A stretch of DNA of 64,000 nucleotides, taken from Halovivax limisalsi (GTDB taxonomy: Archaea; Halobacteriota; Halobacteria; Halobacteriales; Natrialbaceae). Under the pieces are notes generated by a model. That model had not been told where the DNA came from and made no database searches. It worked only from the letters and a program-made list of their open reading frames with translations. The stretch spans positions 1,860,001 through 1,924,000 of the forward strand of contig NZ_CP095757.1 of the NCBI RefSeq assembly GCF_023093535.1, in the 5' to 3' direction. Positions 53,028 to 58,448 of the stretch are shown piece after piece (within the stretch, counting starts at the first letter, position 1; the number at the start of each line of letters is the position of its first letter). The translations under genes were made by a program, and so were the position numbers.

Positions 53028-54044
53028 TCACGTCGCGGCCGGCAAGAGCCGCGTGAGACCCACGCTTTCGAGGACGAGCCAGGAGACGAACCCGCCGTAG
53101 AGCACGAGCAGCAACCACCCCTCAGCGTGAGAGAGGAACATCTCCGTCCGCGAAATCGTGAAGAAGACGATCGTCGCGACGACGAGGAAGGCCATCATCG
53201 GCACGACGTGGGCGAACGTGATGGCGAGCGAACCGGCGACGAGCACGCCGGCCGGGATCGCGACCAGCAGATCGAACGTGTTCGAGCCCAGCACGTTCGC
53301 GATCGAAACGGTCGGCCGACCCGACTGGGAGGCGGCGATGCTGACGAACGCGTCCGGGAGGCTCGACCCCGCGGCGACGATCGTCATCCCCCAGAGGAAT
53401 GCGGGCGTCCCGAAGGCCCTGCCGAGCCCGATCGCCGACCGGACCAGCCCCTCGACGCCGATCACGATCAGGACCAGTCCGGCGAGGAAGACCCCCCAGC
53501 TTCGAGCGAGGTGGACGTTCGCATCGGGCAGTCCCTCGGATTCGCGCGCGTCGAGGTACTGCGTGAAGAGGTACAGCGCGTAGAGGACGAGCGGGATCAA
53601 CGCCAGTCCGCGCGTGACGTCGCCCGTGATGAGGTCGCCTCCGGCCTCGCCCGGGTAGTAGATCACCGACAGCGAGAACGTGAGCAACAGCGTCGCGACG
53701 GCGAGCATGTAGAAGAGCGACTCCTTGTAGACCAAATCGCGGTTCGTCTCGATCCCGCGGCCGATGACGACGGCGACGCCCGGAATGACGAGGAGGTTGA
53801 ACACCGCCGACCCCACGATGGCGCCGACGCCGAGTTCGAACTCACCCCGCACGGCCGCGAGGAGCACGCTCACCAGTTCCGGCGTGCTCGACCCGACCGC
53901 GGCGATGACGGCGCCGTGAACGACGGCTGGCACGCCGTACGCGGCGGCGAGGTCGGCCGCCGCGCGTTCGAGCCAGGTACTCCCGACCCAGACGACGGCC
54001 GTTCCCACGACGGCGATCGAGAGCAGCGTGAGGACCTCGAGCAT
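53028..54044 (-). CDS. Na+/Ca2+ exchanger family (CaCA) membrane protein
   Basis: A 338-residue antiporter with about ten membrane segments. Both CaCA alpha-repeats are clear: GSSTPELVSV with GSAVFNLLVIPG, and GSSLPDAFVSI with GSNTFDLLVAIP. Members export calcium in exchange for sodium or potassium; haloarchaea also use them for ion balance. The start at ATG 54044 gives a hydrophobic first helix. It lies 129 bp downstream of the cohesin gene on the same strand; dockerin-cohesin binding needs calcium, so the neighbourhood is suggestive, though this is only inference. Confidence 0.88.
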   Translation of the reverse strand: MLEVLTLLSIAVVGTAVVWVGSTWLERAAADLAAAYGVPAVVHGAVIAAVGSSTPELVSVLLAAVRGEFELGVGAIVGSAVFNLLVIPGVAVVIGRGIETNRDLVYKESLFYMLAVATLLLTFSLSVIYYPGEAGGDLITGDVTRGLALIPLVLYALYLFTQYLDARESEGLPDANVHLARSWGVFLAGLVLIVIGVEGLVRSAIGLGRAFGTPAFLWGMTIVAAGSSLPDAFVSIAASQSGRPTVSIANVLGSNTFDLLVAIPAGVLVAGSLAITFAHVVPMMAFLVVATIVFFTISRTEMFLSHAEGWLLLVLYGGFVSWLVLESVGLTRLLPAAT

Positions 54045-54173
54045 GCTGGCGGTCGTTTGGGACGACCTCAAATAAAAACAGTCGATGTGGTGCGCACCCC
54101 GATCGCTCGTTCCGGTCGGCAATCGGGCGTCGTTCGAGTCAGTCAGGGGGTGTGAGTGGCCGTCTCCGGCGCG

Positions 54174-54956
54174 TCAGGATCCGCGCCGGGAGCGGCCCGC
54201 GGCGACGGCACAGAGGGCGAGGACGGCAGCAAGGGGGCCGAACCCGGGAACTTCGTCAGCGAGGACCGACTCGTCATCGCCGGACCCGGTATCATCGGGC
54301 CTGCTATTGGCGGACCCGCTATCGTCTTGGTCCGTGGGTCCCCCGCTACTCCCGGGCGAGCGACCGTCGCCCGCCCTTTCGACGGAGACCGTACCGGTAT
54401 CGGGACGCACGTCGATCGCACTGCCGTCGTCCGCGTCGACTTTCGCGTCGGTTACCTGGATCGCGATGTCGCCCGATTTGGGCGGCGAGACCTCGATCGT
54501 GGCGAGCGCGACGTCCTCGGCGCCGGCGGCGATCTCGTCGTCGAGGTCGGCGGCTTCGACGGTGACCGATTGGCCGTCGGCGTCGAGGACGGGGTCCGTG
54601 GTAAGGCCGAACGCGTCCGGATAGGTGGCGTCCTCGAACGAGGCACCGGACTCGCCGTCGATGGTGAGCGTCAGGTCGTACCCGGCCAGGCCGTCGGGGG
54701 CCTGTGTTAGCACGACCGGGACCGATGCCTCCTGGCCGGGGGCGACGGTGGCATCCTCGACGACGAGCGCCGGCTCTGCCTGCTCTGCTGGGAGGGCCGT
54801 TCCGTCAGGTGTACCCCCGACGACGCTTCCGGCGAGCAGGATGACGAGGGCCGCCAGGACCCCAGTCGCGATCGCCGTTTTCCAGCCGGGAGACCTATCG
54901 GGTGACCGCTGGTGCCCGTGGCGAGCGGGATCCGCGGCGCGGCTGAGCGGGCTCAC
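54174..54956 (-). CDS. Cohesin-domain protein with PGF-CTERM anchor
   Basis: A 260-residue surface protein. A membrane/signal helix is at residues 28-47, a cohesin-like beta-sandwich at about 62-192 (VEDATVAPGQEASVPVVL, LAGYDLTLTID, ALATIEVSPP), a Ser/Asp/Gly linker at 195-232, and a C-terminal VPGFGPLAAVLAL helix ending in Arg-Ser-Arg-Arg (residues 236-258). The last resembles the PGF-CTERM archaeosortase signal. The GTG start overlaps the stop of the upstream dockerin-bearing gene (GTGA), so the two are co-translated. The simplest reading is a one-cohesin anchor that holds the dockerin protein on the cell surface. Confidence 0.8.
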   Translation of the reverse strand: MSPLSRAADPARHGHQRSPDRSPGWKTAIATGVLAALVILLAGSVVGGTPDGTALPAEQAEPALVVEDATVAPGQEASVPVVLTQAPDGLAGYDLTLTIDGESGASFEDATYPDAFGLTTDPVLDADGQSVTVEAADLDDEIAAGAEDVALATIEVSPPKSGDIAIQVTDAKVDADDGSAIDVRPDTGTVSVERAGDGRSPGSSGGPTDQDDSGSANSRPDDTGSGDDESVLADEVPGFGPLAAVLALCAVAAGRSRRGS

Positions 54957-57583
54957 AGTTCGTCGTAGAGGGCGGTGACGTCGTCGTAGTCGATCCGGCC
55001 GTTCTCGTTGAAGTCGAAGGCGTCCTCGTTGAGCTGAACGGCGTCGTCCTCCAAGTGTTCGAACAGCGTGACGACGTCGTCGTAGTCCAGGCGGCCGTTC
55101 CCGTTGACGTCCTCGAACAGCCCGTCTCCGTCCGGATCGGTCGGCGCACCGATCCCGCCCGGGTCGTCGCCGATCGGCGGTGGCCCGACGATCACGACGC
55201 CGGGTCGCCGACCCGGCTCGATCGCCCGGCCGGCATCGTCGTCGAACGCGTTGACGTCGACGGTGACGTCCGTCGTCCCCGTCTCCACTCCCTCGAATTC
55301 GATGGTGGCGAGCGTCGTTTCGCCCGCACCGGGGTCGATCATTTCGTCGATGTCCGCGAATCGAAACGCGACGGTGGCGCCCTCCCCGCCGATGACGGGC
55401 TCCGACGTGAGTTCGAACGCGTCGGCGTACGACGCGTCGGTGATCCTCGCGACCGACGGATGCTCGACGGTGACGGTGACCCGCCCGCCGGAGAGGCCGT
55501 CCGGCAGCGACGAGACGGTCACCGCCAGTTCGCCCGTCGCGCCGTGGCCGACGGCGAGCGAGCCGGCATCGACGGTGGCCGGCGGCTCGTACACCCACAT
55601 GGCGTCGTTCGGGTACGAGCGACCGAAGCTTCCCTTGTCCTCACACAGCAAGAGTCGACCGTCATCCAGCGCGTAGACGTTGTCGACGTTGATGAGCGAG
55701 ACGTCCTGGAGCGAGCCTGGATCGCTCGGATTCGGGCCGACGACGACCGGTTCGAGGCGGTCGACGTCGTACTCGGGCCCGAGTTCGGCCCGGTAGAGGA
55801 CGCCCGTATCGACCTCGTCGAATCGCAGGTCGCCGCGCTCGTCGGTCATGTACCCGCCGAGCGACGAGATACCGAAGTAGACGTAGTCGCCGGGACCGGC
55901 GTCGTCGACGGCGTCGATACCCTCCGCCTTGTTGAACTCGACGGTGGCGCCGATCTCCTTGGCCGCGGCCCGCGTCTCGAGGAACGGCACCCGGCGGAGG
56001 GATTCGTCGACGTCGTCCGGGCCCCGTTCGTCGTACTGGCCGGCCCACTCGACTATCTCTTCGTCGGTGACGTAGTCCTGGTTGCCCTCGATCGCGACCG
56101 CCTCGTCGGCTTCGCGGAGCGCCCCTTCGAGGTCCTCCTCCCAATCGGTCTCCGCGTGCGTCTCGAGGTAGTCAACCTGCGTCACGTCGTCGTAGTCGGC
56201 GATCCAGGACTCGATCTCCCCGTTGCTCGCGGTACCGAGTTCGAGCCACTCGACGTCGAGGTCGATCTCTCCGACGGCGCCCTCGCCGTCCTCGGTGGCC
56301 TGCATGGCGTACAGCGTCCCGCGGACGTCGGCCCGGTCGTCGTAACTCGGGATCGGCTCCTCGGCGACGAACTTGTAGATGCCCTTGGCCCCGCCGTCCG
56401 AGGACAGGTAGACGGTGCGCTCGTCGGGCATGACTTCGGGGCACTCCCAGGCGGCGCGGCCGAAGACGTGGTGCTTGACCGGCACGGGTTCGTCGCTCGC
56501 CGGGTTCGTGACTTCGACGATCTTACCGTAGCGATACCGGTTCGGGAAGGGACCGTCGATCGGCGTCGCGGTGTTCTCGCCGTCAGATCGGTCGATCGGA
56601 TCGGCGCCGAGGTAGTACGCCAGCTTCTCGACGCCGCTGTTGGCCCAGATCCCCATCGGGTTCCAGGCGTCGTCGCCGAATATGTCTTCGAGCGAAGCGG
56701 GAACCTCGGTCAGGTTCGGGCGATTGAAGAACTCGCTCCCGCCTCGCAGGCCGACCCCGCTTTCGGCCGCGACGATGTCTCCCACCGTCGCCAGCCCGTT
56801 CACGCGCGGGTGGCCGTAGTCCTCTTCGGCGGACAGCGGCGTCCCCCACGGACTCAGGTCGCCGTAACAGTTGATCTTCGTCCCGCCGATTTCGCGGAAC
56901 GCCGGCGTGTTCTCGAGTTCCATCGCTCCGTCGAGATCGGCCGTCCAGGAGCCCGATTCGTCGCGACTGAGCGGCGTCCGCGTGATACAGCCGGGCGTCG
57001 TCTCGTTGTTCGTAAAGAGATAACCCTCGGTCCCGGCGTCGTCCGTGGCCACGAAGAAGTTCATGTCGGGATTGTAGCCGACCGACTCGTAACTCTCGCC
57101 GACGAGGTCCGCGACGTCCGTTCCGTCTGGCGTCTGGGGGTGCCCCCATCGTTCGCTTCCGCCGTTTATCTCTTCGCCTTCCTGAGCGAGGTACGTAAAG
57201 TCGCCGCCCGCCGATTGCACCCGTCCCCGTTCGGCCTCCGTCTGGGGTGGTTCGAGTTCCTCGAAGTCGCTGTTCGATCCGTCGAGTTCGAACTGGAACC
57301 CCTCGAACACGCCGATGCCGGCCCGGTCGAACGGCGCCGGGTTGTCGCGACTCGGGTGCTGGACGCTGAAGACCAGCTCACCCGTCTCGAAGACGAAGGG
57401 ACCCGTCACCTCCGCACCGCGGGCCGTGGTCAGAAAGCGCTTCAACCGCCCGTTCACGAACGGTGCCGCGGGCGTCTCGTGTTCCTCCGGCCGGTCGCTG
57501 GCTGCCACCGAGCCGATCGTGCCCGATCCGATCGCGGCCACCGTCGACGTTGCGAGCAGACTGCGTCTGGTGAATTCCACCAT
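54953..57583 (-). CDS. PhoX-like (DUF839) exported protein with cohesin-like and dockerin modules
   Basis: An 876-residue secreted protein. A Tat signal (FTRRSLLATS) occupies residues 1-28. Residues about 30-640 match the PhoX/DUF839 beta-propeller family of calcium/iron alkaline phosphatases, including NCYGDLSPWGTPLSAEEDYG and VKHHVFGRAAWE. Residues about 677-799 form a cohesin-like sandwich. Residues 816-876 are a dockerin: two calcium-binding loops, DVNGNGRLDYDDV and DFNENGRIDYDDV, each followed by a helix. Phosphatase activity is likely but not certain, since DUF839 members vary. The dockerin could bind the cohesin of the next gene, with which it overlaps by 4 bp. A strong TATA box precedes it. 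Confidence 0.85.
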   Translation of the reverse strand: MVEFTRRSLLATSTVAAIGSGTIGSVAASDRPEEHETPAAPFVNGRLKRFLTTARGAEVTGPFVFETGELVFSVQHPSRDNPAPFDRAGIGVFEGFQFELDGSNSDFEELEPPQTEAERGRVQSAGGDFTYLAQEGEEINGGSERWGHPQTPDGTDVADLVGESYESVGYNPDMNFFVATDDAGTEGYLFTNNETTPGCITRTPLSRDESGSWTADLDGAMELENTPAFREIGGTKINCYGDLSPWGTPLSAEEDYGHPRVNGLATVGDIVAAESGVGLRGGSEFFNRPNLTEVPASLEDIFGDDAWNPMGIWANSGVEKLAYYLGADPIDRSDGENTATPIDGPFPNRYRYGKIVEVTNPASDEPVPVKHHVFGRAAWECPEVMPDERTVYLSSDGGAKGIYKFVAEEPIPSYDDRADVRGTLYAMQATEDGEGAVGEIDLDVEWLELGTASNGEIESWIADYDDVTQVDYLETHAETDWEEDLEGALREADEAVAIEGNQDYVTDEEIVEWAGQYDERGPDDVDESLRRVPFLETRAAAKEIGATVEFNKAEGIDAVDDAGPGDYVYFGISSLGGYMTDERGDLRFDEVDTGVLYRAELGPEYDVDRLEPVVVGPNPSDPGSLQDVSLINVDNVYALDDGRLLLCEDKGSFGRSYPNDAMWVYEPPATVDAGSLAVGHGATGELAVTVSSLPDGLSGGRVTVTVEHPSVARITDASYADAFELTSEPVIGGEGATVAFRFADIDEMIDPGAGETTLATIEFEGVETGTTDVTVDVNAFDDDAGRAIEPGRRPGVVIVGPPPIGDDPGGIGAPTDPDGDGLFEDVNGNGRLDYDDVVTLFEHLEDDAVQLNEDAFDFNENGRIDYDDVTALYDEL

Positions 57584-57616: not shown

Positions 57617-57624
57617 TTTTATAA
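57617..57624 (-). promoter_or_regulatory. TATA box of the PhoX-dockerin gene
   Basis: The minus strand reads TTATAAAA within an AT-rich 30-bp patch, 34-41 bp before the ATG at 57583. This predicts a leader of about 10 nt. Confidence 0.6.
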
Positions 57625-57763
57625 TATTGATATATTCGGCCAGGGACGAAGCGGTGTGGGACAACCTGACTCAATACTGGCCCGGTCGATACATACCACG
57701 CAATAGACGGTGGAATCAACAGGGCGAGATATGTGGAAGTGAATTGGGACTTCGTGAAAAAAG

Positions 57764-57935: not shown

Positions 57936-58355
57936 TTACTCGTTCGCCGCTTCGTCGGCGGACGCTCGAATCGAGTCGGCACGGCGACGAACCCAATCAC
58001 AGTAGCGCTCAATTTCCGCCGGCGTGGTGCCGTAGAACGACGCCACCCAGTTCGTGTCGGCCCAGGGAGCGCTCACGAGGTAGGCCGCCATCGTGTCTTT
58101 GCCGGCCTGCACGATCTCCGGTGGGACGCCGCGATCACCCGTCCCGGCCTCGACGAACCCGTTCACGTCGAAGTAGACGTCCGCGTACAATCGCACATCG
58201 TCGAGCGACTCGAACGTGATCTCGGCGTGGTCGGGAGCGACGAATCGATACCGATCGGTCTCTGCGTCCGTGTCGCGTTCGACGATGGCGATCCCGAAGC
58301 CGTACGATTCCACGGTCGATTCGGTCGAGTCGTCAGTGGCTGGCACCGTGGCCAT
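57936..58355 (-). CDS. Conserved-looking hypothetical protein
   Basis: A 139-residue acidic protein with a beta-rich first half (YGFGIAIVERDTD, ITFESLDDVRLYADV) and a helical second half ending in a Tyr-Cys-Asp-Trp patch (IERYCDWVRRRAD). No membrane segment, signal or known motif is seen. A TATA-like CTATTATAAACC about 35 bp before the ATG supports the start and expression. Confidence 0.65.
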   Translation of the reverse strand: MATVPATDDSTESTVESYGFGIAIVERDTDAETDRYRFVAPDHAEITFESLDDVRLYADVYFDVNGFVEAGTGDRGVPPEIVQAGKDTMAAYLVSAPWADTNWVASFYGTTPAEIERYCDWVRRRADSIRASADEAANE

Positions 58356-58448
58356 GGTGGTCGAGGCGAGACCCGAGGGGGTAATGGTTTATAATAGCCC
58401 TATGTACCGCTCCAGAGCCAGCCGTTGGGAGACGTTCTCCACCGCATC

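Follow-up and report, generated by a model that had tools for sequence, protein, structure and literature searches.

A dockerin-bearing PhoX homologue and an adjoining membrane-anchored cohesin protein as a putative two-component surface attachment system in haloarchaea

Cohesin-dockerin attachment of exported enzymes is best known from bacterial cellulosomes, for example from the OlpA-type anchors of Clostridium thermocellum, surface proteins whose one type I cohesin captures an enzyme through its dockerin. Cellulosome anchoring proteins such as OlpA attach via an S-layer homology domain. In archaea, the non-cellulosomal cohesins and dockerins of Archaeoglobus fulgidus (PDB code 2xdh) provide an experimentally determined cohesin fold, and work cited as verification in a study of ANME genomes supports strong and specific archaeal cohesin-dockerin bonds (PMC9012536). 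ANME proteins combine both domains in one chain, the common dockerin proteins being binding components of ABC transporters (PMC9012536, PMC5244752); multi-cohesin scaffoldins are stated to be absent from the archaea previously found to carry these domains, and ANME proteins reach five cohesins (PMC9012536). In haloarchaeal enzymes, published accounts assign the dockerin a substrate-binding role (PMC10963439, PMC13260240). Finally, the PhoX alkaline phosphatase of Pseudomonas fluorescens (PDB codes 3zwu/4amf) has a catalytic domain homologous to the one considered here.

The locus under study lies in the window, a 64,000-nucleotide stretch of the Halovivax limisalsi genome, and comprises two overlapping genes, hereafter gene A, a PhoX homologue ending in a dockerin, and gene B, a membrane protein with one cohesin. 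The parts are already known, whereas the client enzymes, the archaeosortase-type anchor and the operon appear new relative to the literature searched; that coverage was partial, and no relevant combination of dockerin and PhoX was found within it. Compared to OlpA-type anchors, (i) the client is a PhoX-type phosphatase homologue and not a cellulase, (ii) the anchor carries a C-terminal transmembrane/PGF-CTERM segment in place of the S-layer homology domain, and (iii) anchor and enzyme overlap in one operon, with the enzyme itself bearing a cohesin-fold domain. Unlike a cellulosome, with its multi-cohesin scaffoldin assembling several enzymes on polysaccharide, gene B has one cohesin. The A. 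fulgidus proteins share the archaeal cohesin fold, but the haloarchaea display a conserved phosphatase-anchor operon, a membrane-anchored cohesin and different client enzymes. Contigs of ANME-2 and Methanophagales encode relatives of the gene A tail; the relevant sections of the ANME papers (PMC9012536, PMC5244752) mention no phosphatase-anchor pair. The features of the locus are as follows.

54174-54956, minus strand: gene B, 260 aa, single-cohesin, membrane-anchored protein.
54177..54251, minus strand: PGF-CTERM-type C-terminus of gene B, PGFGPLAAVLALCAVAAGRSRRGS (TIGR04126).
54252..54377, minus strand: acidic Ser/Gly/Asp-rich linker of gene B, read from the sequence.
54378..54776, minus strand: cohesin domain of gene B (Pfam E 8e-3; AlphaFold2 pLDDT 93.4; PDB cohesin matches).
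54816..54881, minus strand: N-terminal hydrophobic signal/transmembrane segment of gene B (hydropathy 2.51 at residue 28).
54953..54956, minus strand: GTGA stop/start overlap of genes A and B, 4 bp.
54953-57583, minus strand: gene A, 876 aa, PhoX homologue with a Tat-type start and a C-terminal cohesin-like plus dockerin tail.
54956..55132, minus strand: dockerin of gene A, two calcium loops, symmetric YD/YD recognition code.
55169..55558, minus strand: cohesin-fold domain inside gene A (AlphaFold2 model against PDB cohesins), homologous to the gene B cohesin.
55577..57466, minus strand: PhoX domain of gene A (Pfam, PDB profile match, invariant residues).
57494..57583, minus strand: twin-arginine-type N-terminus of gene A, MVEFTRRSLLATSTVAAIGSG..., read from the sequence.
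57617..57626, minus strand: conserved promoter element TATTATAAAA upstream of gene A.

The most probable reading, to which we assign a probability of roughly 0.72, is that the two genes encode a two-part system for surface attachment in which the gene B cohesin holds phosphatases at the cell surface, partly in trans. Gene A would be exported folded via the Tat route as a PhoX-type phosphatase, and gene B would be exported and retained in the membrane by its C-terminal segment, offering a single cohesin carried by an acidic linker. Binding of this cohesin by the calcium-dependent dockerin of gene A would keep the enzyme at the cell surface, so that the phosphate it releases becomes available for uptake. 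The architecture, the folds, the conserved pairing of the genes and the sharing of the tail are demonstrated; the binding, the lipid anchoring, the phosphatase activity and the scavenging of phosphate are all inferred.

The gene A protein begins MVEFTRRSLL, a Tat-type start in which R6 and R7 are invariant among 22 aligned homologues. Pfam PhoX matches residues 221-651 (2.6e-21), and a profile of full gene A matches the solved PhoX structure (3zwu/4amf) at 9e-11, aligning Cys239 to its Cys179 and Glu253/254 to its CEE motif; these three residues are likewise invariant in the 22 homologues. Gene A is PhoX-type by its domain and its retained metal-site Cys and Glu residues, and a phosphatase activity with an Fe/Ca cofactor is inferred. 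The haloarchaeal branch differs from the P. fluorescens enzyme in its low identity and in occurring with or without a cohesin-dockerin tail. At the C-terminus, Dockerin_1 was detected at residues 824-872 with E 4e-4 and 21.0 bits in the protein scan, just under the cut-off of 22.9 bits, and with 26.4 bits, above it, in the genome scan. Both calcium loops are present (residues 825-836 and 857-868), the two repeats are identical at 12 of 20 positions, and the segment matches the CelS dockerin (PDB code 2mte). Having duplicated D-x-N-x-N-G-type loops, each with a following helix, this terminus is a type I dockerin by sequence; that it binds a cohesin in a calcium-dependent manner is inferred.

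Gene B is a divergent cohesin, the assignment of which rests on fold: Pfam Cohesin covers residues 63-177 at E 8e-3, the scores (16.8 and 17.5 bits) fall below the curated cut-off of 24.1, and a single-sequence search of gene B alone against the PDB returned no matches. Its C-terminus contains the PGF motif, the hydrophobic segment and the basic end, although the TIGR04126 match (E 1e-4, 21.9 bits) is under the curated cut-off of 24.5. Archaeosortase A is encoded in the same genome (G000:C1:1565047-1565892). Since the archaeosortase A family has a known role in such processing, gene B in this organism is probably processed by archaeosortase A and lipid-linked, an inference from that role. Among 42 gene B homologues adjoining PhoX, scored with a simple motif pattern, 23 terminate in a PGF-CTERM-like sequence and 19 in a different hydrophobic segment, a C-terminal hydrophobic stretch being present in nearly all homologues.

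Because the Pfam scores of single proteins are borderline, the dockerin and cohesin calls rest on several lines of evidence, the borderline scores being rescued by the AlphaFold2 folds and the wide conservation of the gene pair. Models were built from alignments of 41 natural homologues for the gene A tail (pLDDT 87.6, pTM 0.71) and 27 for the gene B cohesin (pLDDT 93.4, pTM 0.86). Foldseek searches against the PDB placed cohesins on top in both cases, with TM of about 0.66-0.76 for gene B, including the C. thermocellum OlpA cohesin (3ul4) among its best matches, and E down to 2e-10 for the gene A tail, including 4fl4 and 2xdh; the latter ranks second for gene B and sixth for gene A. The model-predicted structures show that the gene B cohesin and the internal domain of gene A (residues ~676-805) both adopt the cohesin fold.

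An earlier note, made without database searches, had proposed this architecture, and sequence and profiles bear out its gene coordinates, the Tat start, the PhoX-like domain, the dockerin (placed at residues 816-876) and the GTGA overlap. The cohesin-like domain that it saw in the PhoX-like protein is upheld by the predicted fold, and its call for profile detection of both domains is met by weak profile scores together with fold. In gene B, the single cohesin followed by a linker also held, by fold, and the proposed PGF-CTERM has its three parts with a score below cut-off; the anchor claim requires refinement, about half of the homologues ending in a different hydrophobic segment.

The pairing of the two genes is shown by its conservation. 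Across a sample of 195 Halobacteriales genomes, a PhoX homologue occurs with the tail in 34 and without it in 34, and gene B lies in the PhoX neighbourhood of 32/34 tailed and 0/34 untailed cases (Fisher p 4e-17, uncorrected for phylogeny). Within each of the families f1, f4, f5 and f12 both tailed and untailed forms are found, an observation that speaks against a single founding event. In a set of 80 loci from named records, which overlaps the genome sample so that the counts are not additive, gene B follows directly downstream of 42 of the 49 tailed PhoX genes. The pair spans many genera, from Natrinema to Haloarcula and Halorubrum, and when over-long predicted starts are disregarded the spacing between A and B is -4 to +137 bp; in G193 and Haloterrigena salina (L158) a single gene B accompanies a tandem of two tailed PhoX genes. 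On the other side, gene B is missing from genomes G040 and G057, which keep the tail, and was not found beside the tailed gene in the loci of Halalkalicoccus, Halocatena, Halegenticoccus and Halogranum. The expectation of the earlier note that the pair would recur in other haloarchaea is fulfilled in dozens of genomes, and gene context lends good support to its description of an enzyme with a matched anchor in one operon, physical binding remaining inferred.

These distributions bear on the alternative that the tail serves as a structural or substrate-binding module, stabilised by calcium and without a cohesin partner, gene B being a co-transcribed but independent surface protein. In its favour, the haloarchaeal enzyme papers treat the type I dockerin as substrate-binding (PMC10963439, PMC13260240), and some lineages have the tail without gene B. 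Against it, gene B is predicted by the tail and not by the PhoX domain, gene B is a cohesin by fold, and a distinct tailed protein, with SNase and DUF4350 domains, is encoded beside a membrane-anchored cohesin of its own. We consider this alternative highly improbable. A conserved partner gene instead gives haloarchaeal dockerins a testable attachment role, and the occurrence of relatives of the pair in cultured named species (Natrinema gari, Haloarcula vallismortis) makes the binding and anchoring claims amenable to experiment.

Several observations concern the surroundings of the pair. Gene B is immediately followed, on its own strand, by a sodium/calcium exchanger gene (window 53028-54122). 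A 139-aa protein without a Pfam match (window 57936-58355) adjoins gene A, and look-alikes take the position directly behind tailed PhoX in Halogranum, Halegenticoccus tardaugens and Halalkalicoccus, loci that lack gene B. In G193 (L131), the gene B homologue behind the two tandem PhoX genes is broken into two overlapping frames, reflecting either disruption or a sequencing error. Natrinema-type and related genomes (L238, L239, L240, L241, L242) encode, not far from the PhoX pair, a further membrane protein with one cohesin, in Natrinema-type genomes about 10 kb away and not closely related to gene B, a point against the preferred reading; at L241 it adjoins a 5'-nucleotidase-type gene.

The tail is shared with other proteins. 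It follows PhoD in several genomes, G191, G083 and G157 among them; a 5'-nucleotidase carries it in G191 and Halorientalis persicus, and in Halorientalis pallida it is attached to a choice-of-anchor I domain. Within the named set, gene B accompanies none of six tailed PhoD loci nor the one tailed 5'-nucleotidase locus. Full-tail PhoD occurs in 9 of 392 genomes, 8 of which have a gene B homologue elsewhere, against 87/392 overall (p 3e-5, uncorrected for phylogeny); the remaining one, G203, yields no gene B at E<=1e-12. These tailed enzymes without an adjacent anchor gene would probably be held by the same gene B anchor in species encoding them, and it is likely that gene B serves further phosphatases in trans, with binding again inferred. 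A bolder reading, which we would as soon doubt as accept, is that PhoX, PhoD and 5'-nucleotidase, unrelated phosphate-releasing enzymes, share at the haloarchaeal surface one membrane-anchored cohesin encoded beside PhoX; if true, this would constitute a phosphatase counterpart of the cellulosome made from single-cohesin anchors.

The composition of the tail also underlies the main rival, which remains possible: the dockerin might bind the cohesin-like domain of gene A itself, within a chain or between neighbouring chains, forming oligomers or chains that gene B only caps or tethers through its cohesin. Supporting this, all PhoX, PhoD and 5'-nucleotidase tails inspected from the named set have a cohesin-fold domain ahead of the dockerin, and lineages without gene B retain both domains. 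In addition, distance-matrix co-variation with the dockerin is at least as strong for the own cohesin-like domain (partial r 0.61) as for the gene B cohesin (0.48). Mirror-tree co-variation was accordingly dropped as evidence of dockerin-gene B binding: it is positive, but does not single out gene B, being no stronger than with gene A's own domain. Against self-association, the position equivalent to CipA Asp39, which we take to be a dockerin-contacting residue, is Glu/Asp in 18/27 gene B-type cohesins and Arg in 23/41 gene A-type domains (equivalence set by hand alignment), so that the two cohesin faces differ; furthermore, self-association leaves unexplained the gain and loss of gene B together with the tail. 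The chains or self-association that the earlier note thought conceivable are thus not excluded, since some lineages keep the tail without gene B. Attachment to gene B remains our preferred reading; it would extend cohesin-dockerin attachment from polysaccharide breakdown to phosphorus acquisition, and a pair functional at molar salt could be a useful tool.

The element TATTATAAA[AC] upstream of gene A precedes the PhoX start by about 42 bp in 34/49 PhoX homologues, with hardly any variation in distance, and is rare, with 7 occurrences in the genome. A second TATTATAAA[AC] copy (window 58387-58396) lies upstream of the 139-aa gene next to gene A. A phosphate regulon marked by TATTATAAA was considered and rejected, other genomic sites preceding solute-binding-like, neutral-ceramidase-like and unnamed open reading frames (the extracellular solute-binding-like and neutral-ceramidase-like names were assigned by eye from sequence); it is best regarded as a conserved core promoter element only, and the lack of an obvious phosphate regulon counts against the preferred reading.

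The specificity of the dockerin was considered against the other dockerins of the genome. Most pair-bearing Natrialbaceae genomes contain exactly one gene A-class dockerin; here, a profile of the gene A-type dockerin hits a single dockerin, and a search with gene B recovers only genes A and B. Among the dockerins of this genome matching the motif pattern, the recognition code of gene A is YD/YD, as opposed to S[LI] in repeat 1 and PA in repeat 2 of the others. Elsewhere, four genomes (G003, G174, G127, G166) each hold from 16 to at least 30 gene A-class dockerins, numbers that suggest expanded systems.

A final alternative is that the gene A dockerin plugs into the scaffoldin of a subtilase cluster, the phosphatase thereby joining a multi-enzyme complex. 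The genome does encode a 2087-aa, 14-cohesin scaffoldin and eight dockerin-bearing subtilases. However, the recognition codes differ and the sequence classes separate, and Pfam searches of Halovivax asiaticus (G134) and its congener G169, which keep the pair, returned no dockerin or cohesin beyond it. Given the recognition code, the sequence class and the distribution, the membership of gene A in this complex was rejected and is all but ruled out.

The subtilase-dockerin cluster itself, a protease counterpart of the cellulosome, occupies 36 kb of the same genome outside the window (G000:C1:76516-112592; L055, L056). It comprises (i) the 14-cohesin protein, with a PGF-type C-terminus, (ii) two smaller cohesin proteins also with PGF-type ends, and (iii) the eight subtilases, the dockerins of which are C-terminal. 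The congener G087 has a similar cluster with a smaller scaffoldin, and no other genome among the 195 sampled reached at least 14 Pfam cohesins. In addition, beta-propeller/PKD/CARDB proteins of about 2000-2600 aa, encoded at G000:C1:550734-577123 and 1056761-1063249, terminate in dockerins of the subtilase-cluster type.
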